Assembly (NCBI RefSeq): GCF_014333525.1
Contig: NZ_JACSCX010000006.1
Coordinates: forward strand, 186,001-250,000
Direction of reading: 5' to 3'
Length of the DNA stretch: 64,000 nucleotides
Origin: Hymenobacter puniceus
GTDB taxonomy: Bacteria; Bacteroidota; Bacteroidia; Cytophagales; Hymenobacteraceae
The notes under the pieces are model-generated. The model ran no database searches. It saw only the letters and a list, made by a program, of their open reading frames with translations, and was not told the origin of the DNA. The translations under genes and the position numbers were made by a program. Positions 34,683 through 50,887 of this stretch are shown here, piece by piece; the stretch's first letter is position 1; every line of letters starts with the position of its first letter.

Positions 34683-35366
34683 CTACATCCGCCCCACCTT
34701 TGGAATTACCTGAATCAGGAAGCGTTTGTTGTCGCCTTCGCGGCGGCCGGTGTAGCGGCCGGTACCGTAGAAGCCGCTGCCGCCGATGATGAGCTCTAGG
34801 CTGCGGTCCTGGCTGAAGTTGAGGTTGTTCTGCTTCCAGAGGTTGAGCAGGTTGAGGGCCCGACGGTAGCTGAGCTGGTAGGTGGCCTGCTCCTCGCGCT
34901 GGTTGCGCGGGTCGCCCTGGGGGTAGCGAGCGGCCATACCTTCCACAATCACCAGGTAGCGCACGTTCTGGCCCTGGTTGGTGGCACTGAGGCTGCGCAG
35001 CCGCTCCCGCAGCAGCTGGCCGGCCTGCAGCAGCGCCGGCTTGTAGCTGTCCTGGATTTCGTCGCGGCCGGCTTTGAACTGCACGTTCAGCTTCAGCTCG
35101 TACCGCTCGTTCTGGGGGTCGTAGCGGAAGTAGCGCCCCTCCAGCCGCCGCAGCGACTCCCGGATGCGGGTAATCTGCTCCAGCTCGATGGCCTTGGCTT
35201 TCAGCTCGCCGTTGGCCTGCTTCAGCTCCCCTTCCCGGTCCTTAAATAGCTTGAAGCTATACACGAACAGCACCAGCATCACCACAAACAAGGACGTCAT
35301 CAGGTCCACGTAGCTGGGCCAGAAGAAGTCGTTGCTTTGGCGTTTGTTGGAGGTGGTGTTGTTCAT
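34683..35366 (-). CDS. MotB/OmpA-like membrane protein of the cytoskeletal cluster
   Basis: A 227-residue protein. One N-terminal membrane helix at about 19-41 (YVDLMTSLFVVMLVLFVYSF) has Asp21 at the position of the proton-binding Asp of MotB/ExbD/ZorB. Next come a short coiled coil (about 45-75) and an OmpA/MotB-like domain (LNVQFKAGRDEIQDSYKPAL, VRYLVIVEGMAARYP, YQLSYRRALNLLNLWKQ). I infer the peptidoglycan-facing half of an ion-driven two-subunit motor with the MotA-like protein encoded at 35704-37164. It is last in the minus-strand cluster and is separated from the MotA-like gene by an oppositely oriented gene. Confidence 0.88.
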   Translation of the reverse strand: MNNTTSNKRQSNDFFWPSYVDLMTSLFVVMLVLFVYSFKLFKDREGELKQANGELKAKAIELEQITRIRESLRRLEGRYFRYDPQNERYELKLNVQFKAGRDEIQDSYKPALLQAGQLLRERLRSLSATNQGQNVRYLVIVEGMAARYPQGDPRNQREEQATYQLSYRRALNLLNLWKQNNLNFSQDRSLELIIGGSGFYGTGRYTGRREGDNKRFLIQVIPKVGRM

Positions 35367-35379
35367 GAGGGAATGTATC

Positions 35380-35401
35380 TTGCCAACTGATTATTTGGCA
35401 A
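35380..35401. promoter_or_regulatory. Inverted repeat between divergent MotB-like and DUF2695-like genes
   Basis: TTGCCAA (35380-35386) and TTGGCAA (35395-35401) are perfect inverted half-sites 8 bases apart. They lie in the 34-base gap between two divergent starts and touch the ATG at 35401. It could be an operator for one or both genes. No regulator can be named. Confidence 0.35.
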
Positions 35402-35703
35402 TGAGCAGCAAAGACGAAAAGCAGAAGCGGAAAGCCTTATTAGCAGGTGTCAGGCAAAAGCAACAGCAGGAGCTACTTGCTTCTACGCCTGTTTCACTCG
35501 CGCATCTCAAAGAGCTATTCGATTATTTAGATGAGCAATTAGGCGAAGAAGAGTGCGATGATACACTCCGACTTACGCAGCTTTTCTTGAAGTCTCGCAA
35601 CTTGCCAGTTTCTGAAACCTCTACATGGCTGGCAACGCATGGTGGTCATTGCGACTGTGAAGTGTTGGCTAACGTGGAAGAGAAGTTCGAAAAGCTATTG
35701 TAG
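35401..35703 (+). CDS. DUF2695-like small protein inserted between MotB-like and MotA-like genes
   Basis: A 100-residue soluble protein from ATG 35401. A basic start (MSSKDEKQKRKALLAGVRQKQQQ) leads to an acidic helical core (LKELFDYLDEQLGEEECDDTLRLTQLFL). WLATHGGHCDCEVLANVEEKF follows, a pattern I associate with DUF2695, often found as a stray small gene. It is the only plus-strand gene inside the cytoskeletal cluster and looks AT-richer than its neighbours. Its TAG stop (35701-35703) directly abuts the stop of the MotA-like gene, giving TAGCTA. Confidence 0.75.
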   Translation: MSSKDEKQKRKALLAGVRQKQQQELLASTPVSLAHLKELFDYLDEQLGEEECDDTLRLTQLFLKSRNLPVSETSTWLATHGGHCDCEVLANVEEKFEKLL

Positions 35704-37164
35704 CTACTGCGGCTTCACGCCCCCAAACAGCTTATCCATAAACCGCTGGAAACGGTTCTTGGAGGTGGCTTTCACCAGCACGGTGTTCAGGTTGGACAGC
35801 TCCGCGAGCAGCTTGGCCTGAATCTGGGAATCGACTTCCACTTTGCGCAGCAGCTCGCGCTGGGTGGCCGTGACGTCACGGCTGAGGTCGGCTTGCTGCA
35901 CGTTGAGGTTCTGGAAAGGCTCCAGCTGTTTCAGCAGCTTCTCGAAGACGTTGTCGGCGTTGAGCTGCTCGAAATACTGCTGCCACTTCTCGTAGGCCAG
36001 CTGGGCCTGCCGCTCGTTGTAGGCCAGGCGCTTGTTCATCACGTCGGCGAGGCCCACGCCGGCCTGGTCGATGTGCTGCTCGGCGCGGTCCTTGAGGTTG
36101 CGCAGCTCCACCTGGTGCTTCTGGAAGAAATCCAGCATCAGCTGCACCGAGTTGTTGTTGCCGCCGATGTACTGGCCCAGGTCGTTGATGCCCTTCTCGA
36201 AGCCCCGCAGCCGGTCCAGGATGCTGTTCACGGCCTCGGCGGAGTGGTAGCCGCTCTGCAGCATCTCGTTGAGGCGCTGCTGGTAGCCGGTAAAGGCGCT
36301 GAACATTTCCGCCGACTCGCGCACCTTCTCAAACACCAGGATGTTGGCCGCCGCCATCTTGTCGTAGCCGATGGTATCGAGGCGCTCGAGGAAGTCGCTC
36401 TGCACCCGGATGTTCTGCGTCACCTTCTCCATGAGCGGGTTGAACAGCTCCACCTGGCCCACAAACTGCTGGTTGAAGGCATCGAGCACCGACTTTAGGT
36501 TGGTGAGCGAGCTGGCCATATCGGCGTGCAGCACCGGCAGCAGGCGGGCCTGCAGGAAGGTGTAGTACTGGTTCTGGAGCCGGTCGAGCTGGTGGCGGGC
36601 CTGACGCAGCACGCCGTTGCCGAGCAGCGTGAGCAGCAGCCCCACGAAGGAGCCGGTCATGGCAATGAGCACGCCGGTGAGGAAGGGCGTCAGCGCGTTT
36701 TCATCGGACACGCCGTTGCGGGCAATGCCCACGAGGCCCAGAATCACGCCCAGAAACGTGCCCAGCAGCCCCAGGTAGAGGGGCGTGGCCACCTCGGCCT
36801 GCACTGCATTATCCAGCACCTCGCTCTGCCGCTCCGAAATGTCCTTCAGAATCCCAAAATCGGCCGCTGCGCCCTTGTTGTGGCGCAGGTAATCGTTGGT
36901 ATCCAGCAGGATTTCCTGGAACTCAGGCGAGGCGTTGTCGGCCTTGATGAGGTTGGAGGCGAAGGACTCGGGCGGGGCGTCGGCGGCGTACTCGGGCAGG
37001 TCGCGGCCGTCGGGCAGCACAATGCGGTGCTCCACGCGCAGGCTTTCCTTGGGCGGATACAGCACGGCCAGTCGCCGGGCATTGGCCCGCGTCCGCAGAA
37101 ACGTGCGAATCTGCAGCCCCACCACCACGGTCACCACCAGAACTTCGAGAATGATTTCAAGCAT
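35704..37164 (-). CDS. MotA/TolQ/ExbB-like protein with long coiled-coil tail
   Basis: A 486-residue protein. It has an N-terminal helix (about 3-20), then two membrane helices at about 128-147 (TPLYLGLLGTFLGVILGLVG) and 160-186 (PFLTGVLIAMTGSFVGLLLTLL). This is the GLLGT...GxxxAxxG pattern of MotA/TolQ/ExbB proton-channel proteins. From about 190 to 465 it is mainly coiled coil. The overall plan, a motor channel plus a long cytoplasmic tail, is like ZorA of the Zorya defence system. No ZorC/ZorD/ZorE genes are present here, so it is not Zorya. Its partner is the MotB-like gene downstream. Confidence 0.88.
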   Translation of the reverse strand: MLEIILEVLVVTVVVGLQIRTFLRTRANARRLAVLYPPKESLRVEHRIVLPDGRDLPEYAADAPPESFASNLIKADNASPEFQEILLDTNDYLRHNKGAAADFGILKDISERQSEVLDNAVQAEVATPLYLGLLGTFLGVILGLVGIARNGVSDENALTPFLTGVLIAMTGSFVGLLLTLLGNGVLRQARHQLDRLQNQYYTFLQARLLPVLHADMASSLTNLKSVLDAFNQQFVGQVELFNPLMEKVTQNIRVQSDFLERLDTIGYDKMAAANILVFEKVRESAEMFSAFTGYQQRLNEMLQSGYHSAEAVNSILDRLRGFEKGINDLGQYIGGNNNSVQLMLDFFQKHQVELRNLKDRAEQHIDQAGVGLADVMNKRLAYNERQAQLAYEKWQQYFEQLNADNVFEKLLKQLEPFQNLNVQQADLSRDVTATQRELLRKVEVDSQIQAKLLAELSNLNTVLVKATSKNRFQRFMDKLFGGVKPQ

Positions 37165-37190
37165 AGAACTGTAAAGTACGGCATTCCCAC

Positions 37191-37294
37191 GCTGTCATCC
37201 TGACGAAGGAAGGACCTTATCACGTCAGAACAAGCCACTATTACGAGGTTCGTTCAAACGTAAAAAGGTCCTTCGCAAGCTCAGGATGACAGAC
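37191..37294. repeat. Palindromic element, CTGTCATCCTGAGC family (imperfect copy)
   Basis: The left end has GCTGTCATCCTGACGAAGG and the right end has GGTCCTTCGCAAGCTCAGG followed by ATGACAG. The left arm has lost a few bases compared with the 33257 copy, so the hairpin is interrupted. It lies between the Pro/Ala-rich membrane protein and the MotA-like gene. Confidence 0.85.
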
Positions 37295-37299
37295 GGTGT

Positions 37300-38751
37300 C
37301 TACTCAAACCGGATGGCGGCTTTCTGCTCGATCTGCCAGGCGCCGGCGGCTTTGCGCAGCACGCCTTCCTCCTCCGTCACGATGCGCGTGACCGGGCCGG
37401 CGGGCTGCTGGTATTTGCAGGCTTCACGCAGGGAATACTGCGCGCTCTGGATGGCGTAGGCGTGCACGGCAGGGTTCTGCGTCACGCTGAACGTGGCCAG
37501 CTCGGGCCACTGCGGGTCCAGGTGAATCTCGTAGATGCTGTCGTGCTGGGGCTCGTCGGAGAAGTCGTACTCATTGAACACGCCGTTTACGGGCACCTTC
37601 ACGTAGCGCGTGCGGGGCAGGTCGGCGGCGGATACGGCCGGGGCAGCGGCGGGCGCAGTTGGCAGCTGCACGGGCGGTATCAGGCTGTCGAACTCCTCGT
37701 GCGGGGCGGCGGGGCTGCTCACCGGGGCAGCCGGGGCAACCGTGGGCGGCACCGGAGCCGGCGCGGGCGCTGCAGCCGGTATGGGTGGTACTACCGGGGC
37801 TGGAGTAGGCGTTACGGGCTGTGGAACTGGAGCTGGAGCCGGGGCGGCGGGAGCGGCAGCAGCTACGTTGGCTTTCGGCGCGGCTTGGCGCTTCTGCAGC
37901 TCCTGCTCCACGCGCTGCTGAATCAATTGTTCCAGCTCGCGCAGCTGGGCCGGCGAGAACCGCTCGGCAGGCTTGCCGCTGCTGCCGGGCGTTGTTTGCA
38001 GAGCCAGAATTTCGTCGCGGCGTTTGTCGATGCGGGCGCTCAGCTCCTTCTGAAACTCTCCGAGGCTCTTGCGCATCAGCGCGTACAGCACCAAGCTCAA
38101 CAGCGCCAGAATCAGGGCCAGAGGGCCAAAAAACTTGTTAATCAGGCTTTCCCCGGCCCCGGATGCGGCGGCTGGTGTGGGGGTAGCCACGCCGGCCTCG
38201 TCCAGACCAGCGTCGCCGGGGGCTGCGGCCGTAGCCTCGTCGGTGGTGGCGGTGGTATCGACGGTTTCGGTTTCGGCGGCGGCTTCGGCCGCGGGCAGGT
38301 CACCGATGGGCGTGCCCTGGTCGAGGTAGTTTTTCAGGGCTGTTTCCAGCTTCGTTACGCCGGCCAGCCGGGCGGCATTGCCCTTGCGGGCGGGCGAGGT
38401 GCGCAGCCGGTTGATGATTTCGCGCACCAGCGTCTGCAGGCGGGAGTTATCGGAGCCCAGGCCGTTGTACATCACGCCCTTTACTTCCAGCGGCTGGTAC
38501 AGCGCCGAGTACACGCGCTGCTCGTCCGTTTTGATGCTACCGGCAAAGTCCTTGAGCGGGCCGCCGCACTTCAGCTGGCTTTTCAGCTCCGGGTGGCCCG
38601 TGTCTTCGTACACGAACTTAGCCGTGGCGCACCAGATCTGCACTTTGCGCTCCTCCAGCGTGGGCTGGCCGAGGGGCGTTTGGGCATGGCCGCCCGCCGC
38701 GAGCAGCAGCAGGCCGGTAAGCAAAGAAGCAACGCGGCGGGAAAAGGTCAT
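37300..38751 (-). CDS. Membrane-anchored Pro/Ala-rich coiled-coil protein of the cytoskeletal cluster
   Basis: A 483-residue protein: signal peptide (1-24, ending GGHAQ), periplasmic domain to about 145 with two Cys (IWCATAKF, LKCGGPLK), and an acidic Ala/Thr linker. A membrane helix follows at about 207-226 (FFGPLALILALLSLVLYALM), then a coiled coil at 228-300. A long Pro/Ala-rich stretch (about 305-375) joins it to a C-terminal globular domain (about 390-483, RYVKVPVNGVFNEYDFSDEP). It resembles a tether linking periplasm and cytoplasm. I know no named family. It lies directly upstream of the MotA-like gene. Confidence 0.75.
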   Translation of the reverse strand: MTFSRRVASLLTGLLLLAAGGHAQTPLGQPTLEERKVQIWCATAKFVYEDTGHPELKSQLKCGGPLKDFAGSIKTDEQRVYSALYQPLEVKGVMYNGLGSDNSRLQTLVREIINRLRTSPARKGNAARLAGVTKLETALKNYLDQGTPIGDLPAAEAAAETETVDTTATTDEATAAAPGDAGLDEAGVATPTPAAASGAGESLINKFFGPLALILALLSLVLYALMRKSLGEFQKELSARIDKRRDEILALQTTPGSSGKPAERFSPAQLRELEQLIQQRVEQELQKRQAAPKANVAAAAPAAPAPAPVPQPVTPTPAPVVPPIPAAAPAPAPVPPTVAPAAPVSSPAAPHEEFDSLIPPVQLPTAPAAAPAVSAADLPRTRYVKVPVNGVFNEYDFSDEPQHDSIYEIHLDPQWPELATFSVTQNPAVHAYAIQSAQYSLREACKYQQPAGPVTRIVTEEEGVLRKAAGAWQIEQKAAIRFE

Positions 38752-38782
38752 AGGGTGTTTGGGTAGAAAGGAACGGACCTGG

Positions 38783-38809
38783 TTCCCAGGGTTGAAACCC
38801 TGGGCTAGT
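38783..38809. repeat. Short palindromic repeat, CCCAGGGTTGAAACCCTGGG
   Basis: A 20-base palindrome (38785-38804) with CTAG at one flank. An inverted, slightly diverged copy lies at 39271-39297, and the pair brackets the DUF6678-like gene. Confidence 0.88.
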
Positions 38810-38839
38810 CAGCGGAAGGATAAGCGGGAGCAGCCGTTG

Positions 38840-39223
38840 TCAACTATTCGGTTTCAAGTAGCCATTTATTCTGAAGATTCCTTCTGCCTCGTCAAATGGA
38901 ATGGAGTGTTTGCACAAAGCCTGTCGAACCCACGAGCTAAAATCAGAAGTGGACTTATCTATCAACTGCCCTACATAGGTTCGGCGGGTCGAATCAATTT
39001 CTATCCACTCTATTATTCGTGCATCCCCGAGTTTGACCCATTCCCAGTCAAGGTGACAAAAGCTACTCCCAGCCACCGGATCATCCAAATACTTGATGCG
39101 TACCTCCGGATTGAACTCTGGATGAGAAGTCATTTCCTGCGCCAGTTCCTTCCATTTCGTCCGGTTCATGACGGATGAAAGCTGGTTCGCGAAAATGAAC
39201 TCCGTTAGCTTGTCATTTTGCAT
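38840..39223 (-). CDS. DUF6678-like small protein inserted in the cytoskeletal cluster
   Basis: A 127-residue soluble protein from ATG 39223 (a GTG four codons upstream is possible). Visible blocks are MNRTKWKELAQEM, FNPEVRIKYLDD, RIIEWIEIDSTRR and FDEAEGIFRINGYLKP, which fit the DUF6678 family as I remember it. Composition is AT-richer than the neighbours. It lies between two inverted copies of a short palindrome and interrupts the giant ATPase / membrane protein gene pair, so it is probably a later insertion rather than a core part. Confidence 0.7.
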   Translation of the reverse strand: MQNDKLTEFIFANQLSSVMNRTKWKELAQEMTSHPEFNPEVRIKYLDDPVAGSSFCHLDWEWVKLGDARIIEWIEIDSTRRTYVGQLIDKSTSDFSSWVRQALCKHSIPFDEAEGIFRINGYLKPNS

Positions 39224-39270
39224 AAGACCAGACACTTTACTGCTAATCTTTTCAGAAGCATAGCCGCTGC

Positions 39271-39297
39271 CTAGCCCAGGATTTCAACCCTGGGCCA
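39271..39297. repeat. Short palindromic repeat, inverted copy
   Basis: CCCAGGATTTCAACCCTGGG (39275-39294) preceded by CTAG. It is the inverse-oriented partner of the repeat at 38783, with small differences. Confidence 0.85.
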
Positions 39298-39311
39298 CCG
39301 CGCCAGTAGTG

Positions 39312-42300
39312 TTACGCCTGCAGTTCGCGGCTCAGGTTGTACAGCGCCTGTTTCAGCGGCAGGAAAAACAGGGTTTCCGGCAAGGTTTCGTCGGAGGAGA
39401 GCTGGCGCTGGAACTGGTGCAGACCCAGGCTCAGGCTGTCCTCGATTTCGCGGAGCAGGATGTCTTTTACGCGCTGACGGTCCACGTCCACGCCTACTTC
39501 GCGCAGGTAAGGGGCTACGTCGTCGCCTTCAAGCACGAGCGTCAAATACTGCCGCACGTTTTCCAGCACCGTGTTTTTCAGTTCGGCATCTACCTGGTTT
39601 AGTTTCAGGCGCTGCTGGTTGAGCTCGGTGCCTTCTACGGCGCCGCTGTACTTCACGGGCTTGATGTTGTCGTAGTCGGTGGTGGTTTTTTCCTCGAAGA
39701 GCACGCCGCCGTTAGTGGTGGCTTCCTTGGGGTTGTCGGCCAGGATGACGCGGAAGTTGTGCGGCGGCTCCACGCCCGTCACGGCCTGGAAGATGGCTTT
39801 CGTAATCTTCTCAATGGCCACCAAGGAACTACCGCCGGCCAGCAGACGCAGGTAGAGGCTGCCTTTGCCCGAGAAGCAGAGGTAGCGCGGCGTTTTCAGG
39901 CCGAGGTGCTTGGTGAGCTGGGCCGTGTGGTAAATGATGCTGGTGTAGTGCAGGTAAAACAGCACCCGCAGCTGCCGGCCCTTGCCGAGGCCCAGGGCCT
40001 GGGTGAAGCGCAGGGCATCATCGTACTTGAACAGCAGGCTGGTCACGTCGGCGGAGCCGAAATCGGTGTTGCTGAGGGCGGCGCGCAGGTAGCCTTTGTA
40101 CTCCTGATTTTGCTCGGAGTCAGGCAGGCTTTCCACGTGGCCCACGCCGAGGCGCAGCAGGCCATTCTGCTTGGGCGCACCCTGCACGCGGGCGTAGCCA
40201 TCACCCCACAGGTCGTCACCGGCGAAGCGGAACGAGGTGCTGTAGGCCGGTTTCTGGTCGGCGAAGAGCAGCAAGTCGGTGGTGCCGCCGCCGATGTCGA
40301 TGTTCACCACGTTTTCGTCGCGGTTGGGCACTACCTGGTTGGTGGCGGTGAGGTAGTAGTACGGGGCCACCGACTCGGTGAGGCAGATAGTAGCGCGGCG
40401 CGTCTTGAACACCTGCTGGAACGACTCGTCCCAGACCTGCTGGAACTGGTTGCGCAAAAACCCGTCGAAGCTCAGCGGCGCAAACCACACCACGCGGGTA
40501 TCTTCCAAAATGCCGCCGTGCAGAGCCGCCTTGTGGCGCAGCAGCAGCAGAATTTCCCGGAAAAACGCCTCGATGCGCGACACGCCCTGTGGGTCCAGCT
40601 CAGCCGACCATTTCAGGTTGGTCACGAACCGGTTCTGGGGCAGCTCGGCCGTGTTTTCGGTGTTGATGCTGAAGCCGATGTTGATGTTGCTGAGCACCTT
40701 GGCCGGCTCGTTGGCAAACGACGTGGTTTCGCAAACCGCCGTCCGAATCGGAAACTCATACACCGAGCCGCCTTCGCCCACGAACGAAGGCACAAACTCC
40801 CGGTTCTGCAGCGTGGCAATGTTGTCCCAGATCTGGCCGGCGCCCGTGCGGTAGCGCTGGGCGGCCGAAAGGCCCTGATCGGCGACTGGCGCGTGCAGCC
40901 ACTCCACCTGCACATCGGCCTCGCCGATGGTGAGCGGGCGCGGGTGCGCGGTGGGCGAATCGGCGTAGGCAATGTGGGTGTTGGTGGTGCCAAAGTCCAC
41001 GGCAAACGTGAAGCGGCGGGTGCCGCGGTCCAGCTCGCGCCAGCGCGGCACCAGCAGGCCCCGGGCCGGCTCCGCGCCGATGGTGGCAGGCGGGCAGGTC
41101 AACTCCGCAAGGTCGAAGTGGGTGCCAGTGACTTCATAGTAGGTGCTGCCGGCAGTAGCCATACTCTTCTGGGTGCGCTCATAACGGGTGGCGCGGCGGG
41201 CGGCCCCCTGCTCCGTAATTCGCTCCCCATTCACGAAGAACGTGAGGTCGTAGCGGCGGTTGAGCATGGTGGGCGCGTTGTCGGCATCCACCAGCATCAC
41301 TTTGTAGAGGTCATTGTACTCGGGCTGGTAGCGCACCTTATAGAACGGGAACACGCCCACGCCCACGGCGGCTTTCACAATGCGGCCCTTCTCCAGAATC
41401 TCGCGGCCCTGAGCGTCCTTGGGGTTCTGCGGATTGTGGTAGTAGCTGCGCTCAAACGTGATAAAGCGGCCCGCCTGCACCGGCACCCGCAGCTGTACGC
41501 GCACGTGGCTCAGGTCGATGGTGAAGGTGAGCAGCTCGGCCAGCTCGTTTTCGGTGAAATACTCGAAAAACGCCTGTTTCAGCGGCAGCAGGTACGGAAA
41601 CCGCGCCCGGCCCTGGCCATCGGCGCCGTACTGGAACGTGACTTTGCCAGTGTGGAAGCGCTGGGTGTTCAGCTCGTAGGGCAGCTCCACCAAGGAGTCT
41701 TCCAGCAGGTCGCCCACCGTGAGGTAGGGATACTTGAAGCCTTTGCCAGGCAGCACGCGGCTTTCCAGCGCCACTTCATCGTAGTAGGGCACCGGCGTGC
41801 GGTCGTCCCAGGGCTGGCCGTTGAGGTAGTTGGCGCCGGGCATCGTCAGGTTCGGGCGCAGCACCAGGGGGCGCGGCCGGCCCGTCGTCGATTCGCGGGT
41901 GGGCTGGATGAACAGGTCGGAGCTGGTCACGGCCGACTGATCGGCGCGGCCGGGCAGGGGCACGCCTTTCACGCTCACCAGGTTGCCCTGCACGTCGGCC
42001 AGGGCCGGGTAGCGGGCCGCAAACTGCTGGGCGCTCCGGTCGCCCTGCATCTGGAGCTGGTTGATTTTCGAGCGGTCGAGGCCGGCGTACACGCTGCCGG
42101 CAAACTCGCGGCGCTGCAGCTGCGGATAGGCCAGAAAGAGCTCGTACACGAACTCCCGGAACTGCGGGTCCCGATCTTCGAGCAGCACGGTCTGCTGGTC
42201 GAAGTAGTGGCCGCGGGCCTGGGGCCGCTCCAGGTCCAGGGGCTTCACGGCGGGGCCGGTGAACAGGATGGTCAGCGGCGAGGTGCCGCCCAGCAGGCGC

Positions 42301-42776
42301 GTGCCGCCCGCCAGCTCCGGCGACTCATAGTACACCAGGTACATGTCGGAGAAGTCGCGGAACCGCTCGTCCTGCATGTACAGCTGCAGGGTTTCGCCCA
42401 GCAGGCGCGTGCCCTCGTCCTGCCGCATCCGGCGGATTTCGGCCTCGGCATTCCAGCGGCGCAGCGTGATTTTGCGGCCGGCCTGGGTATAGAGGTGGTA
42501 GTTGTAGAGCAGCTCCAGCAAATCCCAGAAGTGCGTGGTCAGCTCGTGGTACACAGAGCCGGGGTTGCGCTGCCCCTCCCGGGCCAGAAAATCAAAAGCC
42601 GTTTCAAACAGGTGCATCCGCGCAAACGGCGTCGGGATGCTCACGGCCAGGTTGCGCGACTTGCCCCCTGCGGGGTCCGTCACGGTGTTGATTTCGGTGC
42701 TGGTGACGGGGGCGGTTTTCTGCCAGCCCTGCACCTGCTGGGAGCCGTTGTTGTGTAAGCGAAGGACTTTGGCCAT
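39312..42776 (-). CDS. Large protein with actin/Hsp70-type ATPase domain
   Basis: A 1154-residue cytosolic protein. From about residue 585 it carries an actin/Hsp70/sugar-kinase ATPase fold. Phosphate-1 is FAVDFGTTNTHIAYA (about 590-605), phosphate-2 is NVVNIDIGGGTTDLLLF (about 820-836), and the adenosine-site loop is RYLCFSGKGSLYLRLLAGG (about 965-983). The first 580 residues are a long region without a domain I recognise, with few hydrophobic segments. The C-terminal tail (about 1080-1154) is helical. It lies two genes upstream of the MotA-like gene and next to a tubulin-like gene. I infer a filament- or complex-forming or chaperone-like ATPase of the same machine. Confidence 0.85.
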   Translation of the reverse strand: MAKVLRLHNNGSQQVQGWQKTAPVTSTEINTVTDPAGGKSRNLAVSIPTPFARMHLFETAFDFLAREGQRNPGSVYHELTTHFWDLLELLYNYHLYTQAGRKITLRRWNAEAEIRRMRQDEGTRLLGETLQLYMQDERFRDFSDMYLVYYESPELAGGTRLLGGTSPLTILFTGPAVKPLDLERPQARGHYFDQQTVLLEDRDPQFREFVYELFLAYPQLQRREFAGSVYAGLDRSKINQLQMQGDRSAQQFAARYPALADVQGNLVSVKGVPLPGRADQSAVTSSDLFIQPTRESTTGRPRPLVLRPNLTMPGANYLNGQPWDDRTPVPYYDEVALESRVLPGKGFKYPYLTVGDLLEDSLVELPYELNTQRFHTGKVTFQYGADGQGRARFPYLLPLKQAFFEYFTENELAELLTFTIDLSHVRVQLRVPVQAGRFITFERSYYHNPQNPKDAQGREILEKGRIVKAAVGVGVFPFYKVRYQPEYNDLYKVMLVDADNAPTMLNRRYDLTFFVNGERITEQGAARRATRYERTQKSMATAGSTYYEVTGTHFDLAELTCPPATIGAEPARGLLVPRWRELDRGTRRFTFAVDFGTTNTHIAYADSPTAHPRPLTIGEADVQVEWLHAPVADQGLSAAQRYRTGAGQIWDNIATLQNREFVPSFVGEGGSVYEFPIRTAVCETTSFANEPAKVLSNINIGFSINTENTAELPQNRFVTNLKWSAELDPQGVSRIEAFFREILLLLRHKAALHGGILEDTRVVWFAPLSFDGFLRNQFQQVWDESFQQVFKTRRATICLTESVAPYYYLTATNQVVPNRDENVVNIDIGGGTTDLLLFADQKPAYSTSFRFAGDDLWGDGYARVQGAPKQNGLLRLGVGHVESLPDSEQNQEYKGYLRAALSNTDFGSADVTSLLFKYDDALRFTQALGLGKGRQLRVLFYLHYTSIIYHTAQLTKHLGLKTPRYLCFSGKGSLYLRLLAGGSSLVAIEKITKAIFQAVTGVEPPHNFRVILADNPKEATTNGGVLFEEKTTTDYDNIKPVKYSGAVEGTELNQQRLKLNQVDAELKNTVLENVRQYLTLVLEGDDVAPYLREVGVDVDRQRVKDILLREIEDSLSLGLHQFQRQLSSDETLPETLFFLPLKQALYNLSRELQA

Positions 42777-42781
42777 ATCGG

Positions 42782-43030
42782 GACCCCACCCCCCGGCCCC
42801 CTCCCCGGTGGGGAGGGGAGCCAGACGAAGGTTGCTCGGGGTGATTTTTTACTGCTAGAAACTACTACTAGAAAGCTAGTTCCCCTCCTTAGAAAGGAGG
42901 GGCTAGGGGTGGTTGACAATGGTTGAACGGTGCCGGCTGAATCGTTCTGGTAAACAACATCAGCACGCGCACAAACCACCCCAGCCGCGCCTTCGGCACG
43001 GCGTCCCCTCCTTTCCAAGGAGGGGAGTTT
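42782..43030. repeat. Repeat-filled intergenic region (CCCCTCCTT family)
   Basis: The gap between the giant ATPase and tubulin-like genes holds several palindromes: CCCCTCCTTAGAAAGGAGGGG at the left and CCCCTCCTTTCCAAGGAGGGG at the right. Flanking AGGGGTGGTT and AACCACCCC pair across the centre. CTCCCCGGTGGGGAG lies at the left edge. No open frame has a plausible start. It looks like one or more REP-like elements. Confidence 0.8.
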
Positions 43031-43035
43031 TCGTT

Positions 43036-44484
43036 TTACACCACCTTCACCTTCTCCTCAAACGCCTTATCCGTCACCTCATAGAACAGCTCCAGCAGCT
43101 TGCGGAAGTTGTCGGGTTCCTGGATGGACTTCTCGGTTTTGTTAAGGTTGTCGAGCAGGTAGTTGTGGCTGAGGCCCTTGTTGAAGAAGTCGTTCCACTT
43201 CTTTTCCACCGGCTTGCCCAGAATCATGGCGTTGAAATCGTCAGTCTGTAGGTCGAAGGGGCGGAAGGCGCGGCGGTTCTGGGCCAGCTCCTGCAGCCAC
43301 TGGTCGGCACCCAAGTCCTGGCCATGCAGGAAGGTATTCAGCTCCCGGAAGATGGGCTCGTTGCGCATGGCGTAGTCGAGCTTCAGGTTGTCGGCGTAGG
43401 GCGCTTTGTCGGTGGGCAGGTGCTGCTTGTGGTAGCGCGTGAAGTACAGGAACTGCGTGAGCTGCTTGGCTATGATTTCGCGCGACTCATCGGGCAGGTG
43501 GCTGAACTGGATTTCCGGCGCGTCGGTGCCCAGACCGTACTCGTGGAAGTGCGGACCGCCGGTGCGCAGCTCGGCGGGCGAGTAGCGCATGAAATCCACG
43601 ATGCTCAGGGCCGCCAGCAGCTCAATTACGTGGGCCTTGTTCTTCTGCTGGGTGCCACCAGGCTGGTTTTCGTAGGGCGTATCGGGCGTGTCAGCGAGGT
43701 AGTACAGCGCGTCGAGGCCCTGCAGGTTGTGCTCGTAGTAGCTGAGCGCCGCCTTGGTTTTCGTGAGGAAGTTATTGGAGTCGATGACAGCATTATCCTC
43801 GCTCTGGAGGGCGAAGTAGGGCATCACGGTCACGGCGCCGGTGGGCGCGTCGCGGAGGTAGCGGGCATTGCTTAGGCGGGTGTTCGAGTCCTTGAGGTTC
43901 TTGAGCATCAGCGGGAAGCCCGCCGCGCCCGTACCGCCGAAGATGCTCGACACAAAGAATACCCGGTCGCCATCCTGGAAGTTATCGGCGAAAAACCGCA
44001 TTTCCGGGCTTTCCACCAGCTTGTTCAGCACGATACTGCCCACGTTGGGCGAGCCGCGGAAGCCAATGGTGAGCGGGCTTTCCAGGTTGTCCTGGGTGAA
44101 CAGCAAGTCCACCAGTCCTTTCGAGTCCACGCTCAGACCGTCGTAGCTCAGGTACTGCCGGAAGCTCTGGTTGATGCCGCCGAAATCGAAGATGAAAGTG
44201 TCCTTCACCGAACCGTTCACGTCCTGCGAAATACCGCTCAGCGTGCTGATATCAGTCTTGAAGAAGCCTTCTTCGCGGGGACCGAGGCGCTTGTAGATCT
44301 GCTGGTAGCTCTGTAGCAGCTGCACCGTGCGGTTCATGTCGCCGTTGTGCGCGTCGGGGTCGATGATGATGGGCACCACCCGGTCGCAGTTGGGCAGGTC
44401 CACGCCCGCGGCCAGCAGCATCGTGAGCGAGCGAATCACGCGGGAACCCGTGCCGCCAATGCCGAATAAAAAGAGTTTAGCCAT
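43036..44484 (-). CDS. Tubulin-superfamily (Tubulin_2/FtsZl-like) GTPase-like protein
   Basis: A 482-residue cytosolic protein. The N-terminus has a glycine-rich nucleotide-binding start (MAKLFLFGIGGTGSRVIRSL). The central VFFVSSIFGGTGAAGFPLML (183-189 GGTGAAG) is the tubulin/FtsZ GTP-phosphate signature in variant form. Spacing and order fit the tubulin-like family described in comparative genomics as FtsZl-1 (Pfam Tubulin_2), which is reported with vWA and OmpA-family neighbours, as here. GTP binding and polymerisation are predicted, not shown. The classical cell-division FtsZ is a different protein. Confidence 0.85.
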   Translation of the reverse strand: MAKLFLFGIGGTGSRVIRSLTMLLAAGVDLPNCDRVVPIIIDPDAHNGDMNRTVQLLQSYQQIYKRLGPREEGFFKTDISTLSGISQDVNGSVKDTFIFDFGGINQSFRQYLSYDGLSVDSKGLVDLLFTQDNLESPLTIGFRGSPNVGSIVLNKLVESPEMRFFADNFQDGDRVFFVSSIFGGTGAAGFPLMLKNLKDSNTRLSNARYLRDAPTGAVTVMPYFALQSEDNAVIDSNNFLTKTKAALSYYEHNLQGLDALYYLADTPDTPYENQPGGTQQKNKAHVIELLAALSIVDFMRYSPAELRTGGPHFHEYGLGTDAPEIQFSHLPDESREIIAKQLTQFLYFTRYHKQHLPTDKAPYADNLKLDYAMRNEPIFRELNTFLHGQDLGADQWLQELAQNRRAFRPFDLQTDDFNAMILGKPVEKKWNDFFNKGLSHNYLLDNLNKTEKSIQEPDNFRKLLELFYEVTDKAFEEKVKVV

Positions 44485-44513
44485 GTATGTTCGTTTTTAA
44501 AGTCTGCAGTGCA

Positions 44514-44969
44514 TTAACCTTCTATTGATTCGTCATCCTCGAAGTTGTAAATAGCTCCGTTTAGAACCATGTATAGGTCTCCAAAATGACGCGCCTGGTG
44601 CACAAGTAAGGTCAGATGTTCAGGCTCAATAAATTGGGTCATCACATCGTCATCTGCTTTAATACAGCGCTTAACCTGGTCTTTCAACTCTTCGAAGCAA
44701 TAGTTCCCGATTAGATACCACTCGTTTTCTACAGGAATCCTACCCCAATAGAAGTAGGAAAGCAACTTTTGCCATCTACTGAAACTTCTCTTCAGCTTCA
44801 GCCTGGTTCTGTATTTTCTCCCGGAGGCATCAAAGTATAGTTCCGGTTTTTGTTGAGAGTCATAGTAGCCTGTTAAGCTGCAGTAACCCAAATCCTGCGG
44901 TTCCTCTACCAGATAGCAATAGGGTTTAGCTTCCTGCTGCAGACATAGTAGAGGAAAGGCTGGAGGCAT
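44514..44969 (-). CDS. Hypothetical protein inserted in the cytoskeletal cluster
   Basis: A 151-residue soluble protein rich in aromatic residues and Cys (YCYLVEEPQDLGYCSLTGYYD, FSRWQKLLSYFYWGRIPVENEWYLIGNYCF). Its acidic end reads LYMVLNGAIYNFEDDESIEG. No family recognised. It is visibly AT-richer than its neighbours and separates the tubulin-like gene from the small membrane protein gene, so it is probably an inserted single gene like the DUF2695- and DUF6678-like ones. An immunity-type role is a guess only. Confidence 0.65.
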   Translation of the reverse strand: MPPAFPLLCLQQEAKPYCYLVEEPQDLGYCSLTGYYDSQQKPELYFDASGRKYRTRLKLKRSFSRWQKLLSYFYWGRIPVENEWYLIGNYCFEELKDQVKRCIKADDDVMTQFIEPEHLTLLVHQARHFGDLYMVLNGAIYNFEDDESIEG

Positions 44970-44976
44970 ACTCGTT

Positions 44977-45369
44977 CTAGAAAGGCGTGGTGCTGGCGTT
45001 GGTGGAGCCTTTGCGCAGAATCACAGAGAACAGGAAAAACCAGAACATGCTCAGAATGGCGTTCCAGGTGGCCAGCCAGTAGATGTAGCTGTGGTCGGTG
45101 ACCTGCTGAGCGTTGGTCTGCCAGATGGTCACGAGGAAGGCAATCAGCGCATTCAAACCCAGGAAAATAGCCCAATGGCGGCCTTTGTTGAAGGTGGCCA
45201 CGCCCAGGGCGCGGTTGATGACGTAGTAGAACAGCACCACCAGCCCCAGCGAAATGCCCAGGTTGAGCAGACCAATGTTGGGGAAAATGACGTCGCGGTA
45301 AACGGGGGTGTCGGCGGGTGGTTGCGGGGCGCCGATGAGTTCGTAGATGGAGCGGAAGAGTGCTTTCAT
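44977..45369 (-). CDS. Small multi-pass membrane protein of the cytoskeletal cluster
   Basis: From ATG 45369 the product is 130 residues with three membrane helices: about 30-52 (NIGLLNLGISLGLVVLFYYVI), 66-83 (AIFLGLNALIAFLVTIW) and 97-118 (WLATWNAILSMFWFFLFSVIL). A short N-terminal cytoplasmic or periplasmic lead precedes them. A longer frame from 45441 runs back into hairpin repeats and is not used. No named family. It is located between the vWA lipoprotein and tubulin-like genes and may anchor the tubulin-like protein to the membrane. Confidence 0.75.
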   Translation of the reverse strand: MKALFRSIYELIGAPQPPADTPVYRDVIFPNIGLLNLGISLGLVVLFYYVINRALGVATFNKGRHWAIFLGLNALIAFLVTIWQTNAQQVTDHSYIYWLATWNAILSMFWFFLFSVILRKGSTNASTTPF

Positions 45370-45377
45370 GGAAAGGA

Positions 45378-45539
45378 GTAGCGCGAAGTCCTGCTTCGCG
45401 AGTGGTGAAACGATTATTCGGAAGCGAAATTGTAGCACCAAGCTTCTGCTTGGTGAATCGTTGTGGCCGTTGAACGACTATCGTGCCAAAGCAGGCCACG
45501 CGCGGGTCGTTTAACGGGTCACCAAGCTGGAGCTTGGTG
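45378..45539. repeat. Hairpin repeat cluster (GTAGCGCGAAG and CACCAAGCT families)
   Basis: Three hairpins in the gap before the vWA lipoprotein stop: GTAGCGCGAAG-TCCTG-CTTCGCGAG near 45378; CACCAAGC-TTCT-GCTTGGTG near 45437; and CACCAAGCT-GG-AGCTTGGTG at 45520-45539. The first resembles the double hairpin at 23201. Confidence 0.8.
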
Positions 45540-46922
45540 TTACTCGCCGGGCTGCACGGTCAGGGGCAGTTCGAACACCGGGCGCTTCTCCCCTGCCGTT
45601 TGCGGCTCCAGGCCATCGAGCAGACTACTGAGGGCGAAGGTTTTGGGCGCGGGTGTGGCGTCGTTGCGGGTGGTCCACTGGGCTACCCAGGCGGGGCGCT
45701 GGTCCTGCAGACGCAGCACCAGCGGGCGGGCCGCTTTGGGCGCTTTGGTGAGGCGGATTTTGGCGAAGTGCGTGAATTTATTTTCCAGACCGCTGCTGGC
45801 ACGGGTCTGCTCGGAAGCAGCCTGCACGTCGAGCAGCCTAGCGTCGGTGTCCACGCCTTTCAGGCTCAGGTTCTGCTTCAGATACGCCACGTCGCGGTAC
45901 TGGCCGGGCAAACCTTTCAAATCCAGACCTACCACAAATTCCACCGGCTGCTGAGCCGATGCTTCCGATACGGCCACTACGCGGTAGGCGTCGGCAGTGC
46001 GCTTGCTGGCGCCGGCGTCGCCGTAGTACCAGCTGCCCTTGTTTTGAAACTTGCTCAGCAGCGAGTATGCCGGCCGCGGATACGTGACGCCGAAGTGCGC
46101 CTGCTTAGCAGGCTGCTGTTCCAGCAGCGTGGCATCGAAGCGGCGCACGGCATCGGCGGGGCCCAGCACCCAGATGTAGTACGGAATTTCAGTATCGCAG
46201 CAGTTGGTTTTCTTGCCGGCCGCCTTCAGGGCCGGATAGTAAGTACCGCGGAAGTCCGACGTGTAGCCATACACCGACACGGCCAGATCCTGCTGCGCGC
46301 CGTTGCGCTGCAAGGCGTCGGTGATGTCGGTTTTGATGTAGGGAATGGCTCCGGCGTTTTTCGGCGAGTAGATGAAGTCGGAAATCAGCACGCTCACGGT
46401 GCCAGGCTGGTAGTAGCGCGTCATCAGCGTATCGAGCACGGCGGGCAGCTCGGTGCTTTTGGCCGGCTGCTGAATACCGCTGCGCACTGTCCCCGAAATG
46501 CCCTGGTACGTATCGGCGTAGGGCTTCTCCTTGATGCGGAAAAACGCCTTTTTCCGGGCGGCCGACGTCCGGTTGATTTCGGACAGCAGCTGCGCCACGT
46601 GCTGTTGAAACTTGGTATTCTCACCACTGGCGCCGGCGCGGGGCATAAAGCCCTCCATCGAGCCCGATACCTCCAGAAACACGTTCACGGCCTGCAGCGG
46701 CTGGGTAACGGCATCACTCACCACGTCTGACGCTTCCTCTGGAGCCTCAACTCCAGGCATTTCCGTCGGCCGCACGGCGTCGGGCATTTCGACCTTGGGT
46801 TTTTCGGTGGTGGCAGCCGTTTCCTCTCCCTTCATATCGGAGCGGGAGTAGCAGCCGGGCAGCAGCAGAAGTGTCAGGCCCAAGGCGGGCAGCAGGCGGG
46901 AAAGATAGGTCGGGTGTGGCAT
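45540..46922 (-). CDS. Von Willebrand A-like lipoprotein of the cytoskeletal cluster
   Basis: From ATG 46922 the product is 460 residues with a lipoprotein signal (MPHPTYLSRLLPALGLTLLLLPGC; Cys24). After an acidic Pro/Glu linker, a vWA-type domain starts near 79: VNVFLEVSGSMEGF has E84-x-S-x-S in place of the usual D-x-S-x-S metal-ion site. SVLISDFIYSP is in the middle and LAVSVYGYTSDFRGTYY later. The C-terminal part (about 300-460) is beta-rich. It is the promoter-proximal gene of the minus-strand cluster. Its predicted location is the outer or inner membrane facing the periplasm, where it could sense or clamp envelope partners. Confidence 0.8.
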   Translation of the reverse strand: MPHPTYLSRLLPALGLTLLLLPGCYSRSDMKGEETAATTEKPKVEMPDAVRPTEMPGVEAPEEASDVVSDAVTQPLQAVNVFLEVSGSMEGFMPRAGASGENTKFQQHVAQLLSEINRTSAARKKAFFRIKEKPYADTYQGISGTVRSGIQQPAKSTELPAVLDTLMTRYYQPGTVSVLISDFIYSPKNAGAIPYIKTDITDALQRNGAQQDLAVSVYGYTSDFRGTYYPALKAAGKKTNCCDTEIPYYIWVLGPADAVRRFDATLLEQQPAKQAHFGVTYPRPAYSLLSKFQNKGSWYYGDAGASKRTADAYRVVAVSEASAQQPVEFVVGLDLKGLPGQYRDVAYLKQNLSLKGVDTDARLLDVQAASEQTRASSGLENKFTHFAKIRLTKAPKAARPLVLRLQDQRPAWVAQWTTRNDATPAPKTFALSSLLDGLEPQTAGEKRPVFELPLTVQPGE

Positions 46923-50281: not shown

Positions 50282-50887
50282 TTACTCTGCCTCCCGTACT
50301 TGCTGGTACACAGGCAACTCATAGAACGGCCGCAGCAGCTGCACCACATCCAGCGCGTCGGCCAGAGCCTGGTGCGCCACCGTGGTATCCTCAAAACCTG
50401 CGCGGGCCTTGCAGATTTGCATGGTGGGCAGGCGGGTGTCTTTGCGCCAGTTGAGATAGAACGCGGCCGGGTCGAGCATGGCCGGCTCGGCCCGCACCAG
50501 GCGGCCGTAGCCGGGCAACTGGCGCAGAAAGCCCAGATCAAACGACGCAATGTTTTTGCCGGCCATCGTCACGGCCACGCAGTCTTTTTTATCAACTTTA
50601 AAGCCCTGGGCCAGCAGAAATTCCCGCAGTTGGGGTAGCAGCTCGTCGGGGGTGCACAGCTCGGGGTTAGGCTCTTTGCGGGCCAGTTCCTGTAGCAATC
50701 CGGCATTGAGGGCCAGTGCCCCAGCCGTACCCACCAGTTCCGGGTGCCGCACTACCCGCCGGAACGCCGGCAGCTCGTTTAGCGGCAGCAGGTGCCGGGT
50801 GTCTTCCACCACGGCGGCCAACTCCAGAATCTGGTGCCGCTCGGGGTTGCCGCCGGTGGTTTCAAGGTCGAGGGAGATGTAGCGCAT
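50282..50887 (-). CDS. DnaQ-like 3'-5' exonuclease
   Basis: A 201-residue DEDDh exonuclease domain protein. MRYISLDLETTGGNPERHQILELAAV holds the first D-x-E, MAGKNIASFDLGFLRQL the second Asp, and HQALADALDVVQLL the final His-x4-Asp. No other domain is present, so it is a stand-alone nuclease that trims DNA or RNA ends. Which nucleic acid it acts on cannot be told. Confidence 0.92.
   Translation of the reverse strand: MRYISLDLETTGGNPERHQILELAAVVEDTRHLLPLNELPAFRRVVRHPELVGTAGALALNAGLLQELARKEPNPELCTPDELLPQLREFLLAQGFKVDKKDCVAVTMAGKNIASFDLGFLRQLPGYGRLVRAEPAMLDPAAFYLNWRKDTRLPTMQICKARAGFEDTTVAHQALADALDVVQLLRPFYELPVYQQVREAE

Follow-up and report, generated by a model that had tools for sequence, protein, structure and literature searches.

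A tubulin-like GTPase, an actin/Hsp70-type ATPase and a MotA/MotB-type pair in a conserved seven-gene cassette of Hymenobacter: a candidate envelope-spanning membrane machine

Operons in which a divergent tubulin GTPase, FtsZl1 (Tubulin_2, PF13809), stands beside genes for vWA-type, OmpA-type and membrane proteins were predicted by Makarova and Koonin in 2010 (PMC2875224), and the part of the open-access literature covered by our search listed no experiment on these FtsZl1/vWA operons. Here we describe a cassette of seven genes at positions 34683–46922 of a 64,000-nucleotide stretch of Hymenobacter puniceus DNA (“the window”; host genome of 4.86 Mb, contig 13), whose kernel, to judge by its profile matches, fits the systems of 2010, the cassette likewise combining a divergent tubulin GTPase with vWA-like, OmpA-like and membrane proteins. 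It differs from them in having a constant ATPase partner of the actin/Hsp70 type, and in an OmpA protein that is a MotB, paired with a MotA. The main text of the 2010 paper names neither MotA, MotB nor HSP70, and “actin” is confined there to general remarks, the word “actinobacteria” and the references; none of the ten proteins of our span matched a P-loop GTPase or a protein kinase.

Predicted conflict systems also contain tubulin, HSP70 and vWA genes (Kaur et al. 2020, PMC7159879). In the GAP1-N2 DO-GTPase systems described there, tubulin and vWA genes, or HSP70 genes, share one membrane-associated neighbourhood, as in our cassette; unlike in our cassette, HSP70 and tubulin are separate themes, and the main text is without MotA, TolQ or ExbB. 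The ten span proteins gave no match to TRAFAC GTPase, DO-GTPase, GAP1 or FNIII in Pfam and NCBIfam, libraries that may lack GAP1 models. PMC12505986 has no tubulin, PMC9871819 sets Tubulin_2 proteins aside, and none of the open-access titles and abstract openings listed describes a tubulin, actin-like, MotA and vWA combination.

Two sets of proteins may offer the closest working analogies for the cassette, namely ZorAB and the divisome set with Tol-Pal. The divisome joins FtsZ, FtsA and ZipA with Tol-Pal, that is, relatives of tubulin and actin, a membrane tether whose linker is rich in Pro, and a peptidoglycan-coupled stator driven by ions, each of which would have its counterpart in the cassette; the genome, however, has its own ftsZ with an FtsA-like gene next to it, apart from the cassette. 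In the Zorya pair ZorA/ZorB (8VVN, 8VVI), a MotA-like subunit carries a long cytoplasmic tail and a MotB-like subunit combines a membrane Asp with an OmpA-like domain, as in our pair, whose cytoplasmic partners are by contrast relatives of tubulin and of actin/Hsp70. Ion flux, the tail of ZorA and binding to peptidoglycan are all required for Zorya to work (PMC11890865).

All seven genes are open frames on the minus strand, at the places given by an earlier reading of the sequence alone (the original prediction). In transcription order they encode a vWA-like lipoprotein of 460 residues (45540..46922, from an ATG at 46922) with the lipobox LLPGC and MIDAS-like ExSGSM and SD motifs; TM3, a membrane protein with three hydrophobic helices (44977..45441, an open reading frame of 154 residues); Tub, a 482-residue GTPase of the tubulin superfamily and of the Tubulin_2/FtsZl1 type (43036..44484); an ATPase of 1154 residues (39312..42776), with a predicted actin/Hsp70 fold at residues ~587–1034 and a long N-terminal part ahead of it; PAR (37300..38751), with a signal/periplasmic part, a membrane helix at 207–225, a Pro/Ala-rich linker and a conserved C-terminal domain; a MotA/TolQ/ExbB-like channel subunit of 486 residues (35704..37164) with a cytoplasmic tail of ~300 residues; and a MotB/OmpA-like subunit of 227 residues (34683..35366) with a membrane Asp21 and an OmpA-like periplasmic domain. 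TM3 probably starts at 45369, since many of its relatives have 130–137 residues.

These genes are inherited, replaced and kept as a unit. The original prediction had named two findings in advance that could overturn it, a failure of the genes to co-occur in related genomes and a failure of the tubulin and actin folds in structure prediction. As to the first, we mapped the best 80 of 547 confirmed relatives, a sample that leans towards close relatives (the closest Tub matches in a collection of named genomes are Hymenobacter species at 98–99% identity), and 75 of these 80 loci hold all seven genes in the same order, 74 by script and one (L121) by translation; of the incomplete loci, four (L070, L108, L114 and L120) are cut off by the end of a contig, and in L102 the reading frame of MotB is broken. 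Among the hosts are Hymenobacter, Solirubrum, Adhaeribacter, Pontibacter, Rufibacter, Botryobacter, Sabulibacter, Nafulsella and Cesiribacter. In one locus, L134, the genes follow each other almost seamlessly, with gaps of 3, 6, 8, −11, −1 and 2 bases, PAR being assigned here from its position.

Within Hymenobacter the cassette exists in two diverged forms, whose Tub proteins are ~77–99% and 44–54% identical to that of the window (37% in the incomplete genome G036), and each listed genome of the genus has one form, in single copy apart from split genes. In four loci, L125–L128, the diverged cassette stands in inverted orientation between the NTP and S9 genes, a site occupied by the other form in many other Hymenobacter loci. 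Between their vWA gene and S9 lies a PAR gene that belongs to this other form and is intact (e.g., L128:6265–7860); it may still work or be a relic, and it is from this PAR gene beside S9, taken as a relic, that we infer the direction of the replacement. Distances among the seven proteins correlate at 0.93–0.99 (30 loci) and with those of the neighbouring NTP gene at 0.38–0.56; because the former agree and the latter do not, the seven genes move as a block. Once the swapped loci L125–L128 are left out, the correlation with the NTP gene is 0.83–0.93, so its low value stems from these four loci and shows block replacement, not general independence. The genes are also kept after dispersal: G040, a single contig of 9 Mb, still has all seven, with MotB at 1.71 Mb, the trio vWA-TM3-Tub at 3.36 Mb and the trio ATPase-PAR-MotA at 3.60 Mb.

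Across the phylum sample, a long ATPase match (>200 bits) is found in 12 of the 13 genomes with Tub and in none of the 382 others (Fisher 5e-22), and MotA in 7 of the 13 and again in none of the 382 (Fisher 6e-12), although the genomes are not independent, four of the 13 coming from one genus, and both models were built from Tub-linked members, some of the same sample, such that diverged relatives in genomes without Tub could escape them. The 200-bit cut was chosen after the scores had been seen; the next best matches beyond the cassette ATPases have <35 bits, and the 68 other genomes that pass E 1e-6 for the ATPase do so with such scores, around the phosphate-2 motif. In G037, Tub is on one contig and a weaker ATPase match (134 bits) on another.

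As to the second finding, structure prediction gives both folds. The predicted model of Tub (pLDDT 80, pTM 0.85) shows a tubulin-type GTPase fold, aligning in VIA-align, whose lists cover mainly residues 1–348, with FtsZ and CetZ at Z 16.3 over 220–223 residues (rmsd 4.4–4.7) and with tubulins at Z 16; Foldseek gives a best E of 7.1e-4 with TM 0.2–0.3. Of the extended coiled coil and the helical C-terminal domain of FtsZl1 proteins, the model shows a mostly helical C-terminal region, ~330–480, and no long coiled coil. By itself, the window Tub stays under the curated Pfam cut-offs, with E 0.0034 for Tubulin and E 0.022 for Tubulin_2 (14.5 bits, cut-off 27). Its aligned relatives, at E ≤ 0.1, match both Tubulin_2 (25/27, best 3.2e-9) and Tubulin (25/27, best 4.8e-6), which upholds the link to the tubulin family of Makarova and Koonin that the original prediction had drawn. 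Both glycine-rich loops, GGTG at 10–13 and at 183–186, are invariant in all 27 relatives; polymerisation and GTP hydrolysis are putative.

The ATPase is predicted to have an actin/Hsp70-type fold. Its profile matches MreB at E 3.1e-6 and, in a separate stretch, Hsp70 at E 9.6e-5; its model (pLDDT 81, pTM 0.66) finds MreB, DnaK and ParM in Foldseek, all at probability 1.00, and residues 587–1034 align with Hsp70, MreB and MamK at Z 12.5 to 11 in VIA-align, the lists of which cover mainly 586–1036 and barely the first 580 residues. The phosphate-loop residues D594, G596, N599, D827, G829, G830 and D834 are invariant in 29 of 29 ATPases. Against PHROGs, the ATPase gave just a weak match to a partition protein. 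Membership in SrfB (PF07520) was rejected: SrfB of the SrfABC operons is likewise a large ATPase in which a similar SF.xAGDxL stretch comes after the actin/Hsp70 phosphate-2 motif, but only 4 of 19 ATPase members match it at E ≤ 1 (best E 0.041), and profile comparison aligned 66 columns only. At E ≤ 0.1, PF07520 has matches in 148 of 296 genomes, one of them above the cut-off; most of the listed weak matches span ~20–26 columns around the phosphate-2 motif, and the listed match in G000 lies on contig C9, outside the cassette. In one SrfB locus of a genome of the same phylum (L141), SrfB is followed by a P-loop protein (GESQVGKS) and preceded by a lipoprotein-like gene, so that here too a large actin/Hsp70-type ATPase stands beside an NTPase.

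MotA and MotB form, on sequence grounds, a MotA/MotB-type pair with conserved ion-path residues, in line with the original prediction of a MotA-like channel with a tail and a MotB with a membrane Asp. MotA matches MotA_ExbB at E 2.1e-4, with 21.5 bits as a single protein (cut-off 22.9) and 23.4 bits, above the cut-off, in the genome search. It has three hydrophobic helices and a conserved GLLGT, and T136 and T179 are each found in 27 of 28 members; the positions of GLLGT and T179 we take to be TolQ/ExbB core residues. Among solved chains at E ≤ 1, the MotA profile finds coiled coils and unrelated chains, and neither a MotA nor a ZorA chain. MotB is matched by the ZorB1 model at E 5.6e-13, as are 28 of 28 MotB members, all of which also have Asp21; Ser166, Arg169 and Arg215 are invariant. 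The best match of the MotB profile among solved structures is type I ZorB (8VVN, E 2e-12, positions 5–218 of 221, i.e., 214 positions), followed by MotB and OmpA-family chains; 8VVN is a type I ZorAB (PMC11890865). The terms “ion-driven” and “cytoskeletal” of the original prediction are inferences; the ion-path residues are conserved, and ion flux, a 5:2 assembly and a polymer are putative. Membership in Zorya, in turn, was rejected, with a ZorB score of 25.9 bits against an equivalog cut-off of 400 and no effector: as originally predicted, none of ZorC, D, E, F or G was matched in PADLOC by the 20 window proteins (10 in the span at E ≤ 1 and 10 flanking at E ≤ 0.001). That the cassette works in the manner of Zorya is nevertheless kept as a possibility.

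PAR, with its membrane helix, Pro-rich linker and small C-terminal domain, recalls ZipA, a likeness of layout. Its C-terminal domain recurs in distant loci, with PAR matches in L131, L133, L135 and L153; for the diverged group of Hymenobacter, the first choice of PAR queries went by position between ATPase and MotA.

Tub and the ATPase together are the kernel of the system, and MotA/MotB are one of several envelope modules and exchangeable, since Tub and the ATPase recur at loci without a match to MotA/MotB. Prevotella (L153) has relatives of both, as do plasmids of Gloeothece and Picosynechococcus (L154–L156), the Gloeothece identities being confirmed by profile comparison. These four stretches encode membrane proteins and proteins that match vWA; PAR matches are present too, with the exception of L154, in which only similar-looking proteins follow; MotA and MotB found no match within the stretches, to which the search was confined. 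Behind the kernel of L131, L133 and L135 come single-pass proteins whose domains are either WG repeats, scoring above the cut-off, or SH3-like, scoring below it, and the MotA and MotB profiles have no match in these genomes. The original prediction had regarded both the giant ATPase and the MotA/MotB pair as additions to a tubulin system; this holds for the pair, which is missing beside the kernel in several genomes, and not for the ATPase, which belongs to the kernel in Bacteroidota and Cyanobacteria alike. One distant genome (L139) seemingly has all seven genes in a different order, MotB first, with MotB, Tub, ATPase and MotA recognised by profile or Pfam and the vWA-like protein, TM3 and PAR by motif and layout only. 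On the Picosynechococcus plasmids (L155, L156) the kernel lies not far from an alternate F1F0 ATP synthase operon. Two further Tub-ATPase loci have TerD-type neighbours (L137:7007–8898, a Pfam match, and L138:7877–8455, seen by eye and with no Pfam match), L138 also having an OmpA protein; a link between Ter stress systems and Tub-ATPase systems is possible.

We tentatively read the cassette, at a probability of about 0.4, as one envelope-spanning, divisome-like membrane machine, powered by ions and tethered to the wall. In the manner of ZorAB, MotA and MotB would be the ion-driven stator of the inner membrane, with the OmpA-like domain as the tether to peptidoglycan; the cytoplasmic tail of MotA, rotating or tilting, would act on an assembly of GTPase and ATPase that PAR would hold at the membrane and that TM3 and the vWA-like lipoprotein would connect to the periplasm. 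Such a layout would amount to a second divisome, with a tubulin relative, an actin relative and a tether, powered like Tol-Pal or ZorAB. Its job in Hymenobacter and its family would likely be to sense damage to wall or membrane and to bend, seal or reinforce the inner membrane there. A native role in the cell is favoured by ubiquity in the genus, where Tub is present in 37 of 37 and 43 of 43 genomes (two overlapping samples), and by purifying selection: against four relatives, dN/dS of the seven genes ranges from 0.01 to 0.38, with 0.02–0.10 for Tub and the ATPase, 0.03–0.18 for MotA, 0.01–0.31 for MotB and 0.10–0.38 for PAR, TM3 and vWA. The cassette would furthermore not be redundant, since it is found along with the genome's own FtsZ, MreB and two other MotA/ExbB genes.

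Several findings weigh against this envelope-machine reading, in addition to the way in which the ATPase and MotA models were built. Tub is patchy in the phylum (13 of 395 genomes) and absent from 26 of 120 genomes of the family, 20 of these 26 being listed and none of the listed ones belonging to the genus; in G003, G005 and G476 its gene is broken into two frames, by decay or assembly error; and G445, a genome with 13% contamination, has Tub and MotA and no long ATPase match. Asp297 of Tub, the putative T7 equivalent, is Asp in 24 of 27 relatives and His in 3; the Asp of the OmpA domain, presumably the classical peptidoglycan-binding residue, is by eye evident in L139 and not in the Hymenobacter MotB. 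As to the vWA lipoprotein, the original prediction agrees with the lipobox and with the order of the MIDAS-like motifs, in which Glu replaces the first Asp (E84 in 22 of 25, D84 in 3, with S86 and D182 in all 25), whereas the vWA fold finds no support in Pfam, PDB sequences or a comparison with 12 BatA-type vWA proteins (probability 3.9); the vWA label, drawn from the motif order ExSGSM...SD, is unconfirmed. Finally, a cassette that is swapped between species and whose kernel travels on plasmids suits a conflict system better than a housekeeping one, and phylum patchiness, in-place swapping and plasmid carriage favour a conflict with phages.

A wider form of the envelope-machine reading, which we consider doubtful, is that a wall-anchored rotary stator directly drives or gates a mixed assembly of tubulin-type GTPase and actin/Hsp70-type ATPase at the inner membrane, as a new class of bacterial machine with three energy sources in one envelope-spanning cytoskeletal device, and that the tubulin-actin kernel is an ancient module of Bacteroidota and Cyanobacteria fitted with varied wall-binding parts, be they MotA/MotB, single-pass proteins with WG repeats or SH3-like domains, or OmpA with TerD. 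If the envelope machine works as read above, bacteria would use ions flowing through a motor anchored to the wall to power a tubulin-actin assembly that is outside division and motility, and Zorya-type stators would serve partners besides nucleases. In any case, the cassette provides the FtsZl1/vWA operons, an unexplained prediction since 2010, with a parts list and a candidate energy source, its constant actin/Hsp70 partner is a feature missing from the 2010 main text, and a genus is now available whose listed genomes all carry it.

The chief rival is an anti-phage or anti-invader defence in the manner of Zorya, in which MotA/MotB would sense the perturbation of the wall at phage DNA entry and the tail would recruit a GTPase/ATPase effector that seals the membrane, traps the DNA or kills the cell. 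We hold it to be rather unlikely. The closeness of MotB to ZorB, both in the solved chains and in the ZorB1 model, speaks for it, as do the dependence of Zorya on ion flux, tail and wall binding, the tubulin, HSP70 and vWA genes of the predicted conflict systems, and the patchy distribution, in-place swapping and cyanobacterial plasmids just mentioned; evolution is faster in PAR, TM3 and the vWA-like protein than in Tub and the ATPase, and a passenger protein of the DUF6678 family (see below) weakly matches a TIR-like ThsB1 defence model (E 0.0029). Against it stand the presence in every listed genome of the genus, in single copy apart from split genes, and the strong purifying selection on Tub and the ATPase; Tub has no match in 50,697 phage records, nor was there one in a scan of viral contigs, and the 20 window proteins include no Zorya effector, their only nuclease match being a generic DEDDh model hit by a flanking gene.

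Less probable still is a force-generating filament system: Tub and the ATPase would polymerise together on the membrane and be set moving by MotA/MotB, in the service of surface motility, secretion or cell shape. Both folds come from superfamilies with filament-forming members, and FtsZ-FtsA is a precedent for a tubulin-actin pair; the Hsp70 relatives of the same fold, on the other hand, are not known to act as filaments. Chaperone-like quality control, with the Hsp70-type ATPase and the vWA-like protein handling unfolded envelope proteins and Tub as a switch instead of a polymer, is more improbable again. The top structural matches of the ATPase are indeed Hsp70-type nucleotide-binding domains, tied with MreB and MamK, and vWA MIDAS motifs bind peptides (PMC7159879); but the matches cover the nucleotide-binding domain only, neither DnaJ nor GrpE is matched among the ten span proteins, and the ion motor would be left unexplained. 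That the genes are chance neighbours without a common function is, despite the small unrelated genes that do occupy gaps between them, contradicted for the seven core genes by conserved order, block replacement and retention after dispersal, and has a negligible probability.

Three such small genes interrupt the cassette in the window, and we regard them as likely passengers outside the core because they are found in few or none of the mapped relatives. A gene of 151 residues lies between TM3 and Tub (44514..44969, minus strand), where a minority of relatives have one; the DUF6678 gene (38840..39235, minus strand, 131 residues, E 1.5e-35) lies between the ATPase and PAR and has no labelled relative in the 80 mapped loci; and a DUF2695 gene (35332..35703, plus strand, 123 residues, E 2.2e-18) stands between MotA and MotB, as also in L052, L055, L065 and L069. 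Some relatives have the 151-residue and DUF2695 genes in the very same gaps, which look like places where insertions are tolerated. Beside the split Tub of G005 (L050), the remaining cassette is still present. The flanking gene at 50282–50887, which lies outside the cassette and matches the generic DEDDh exonuclease model of the defence library at E 1.3e-11, is close to the genes for NTP and LemA in many loci of Hymenobacter and has the look of an ordinary neighbour.

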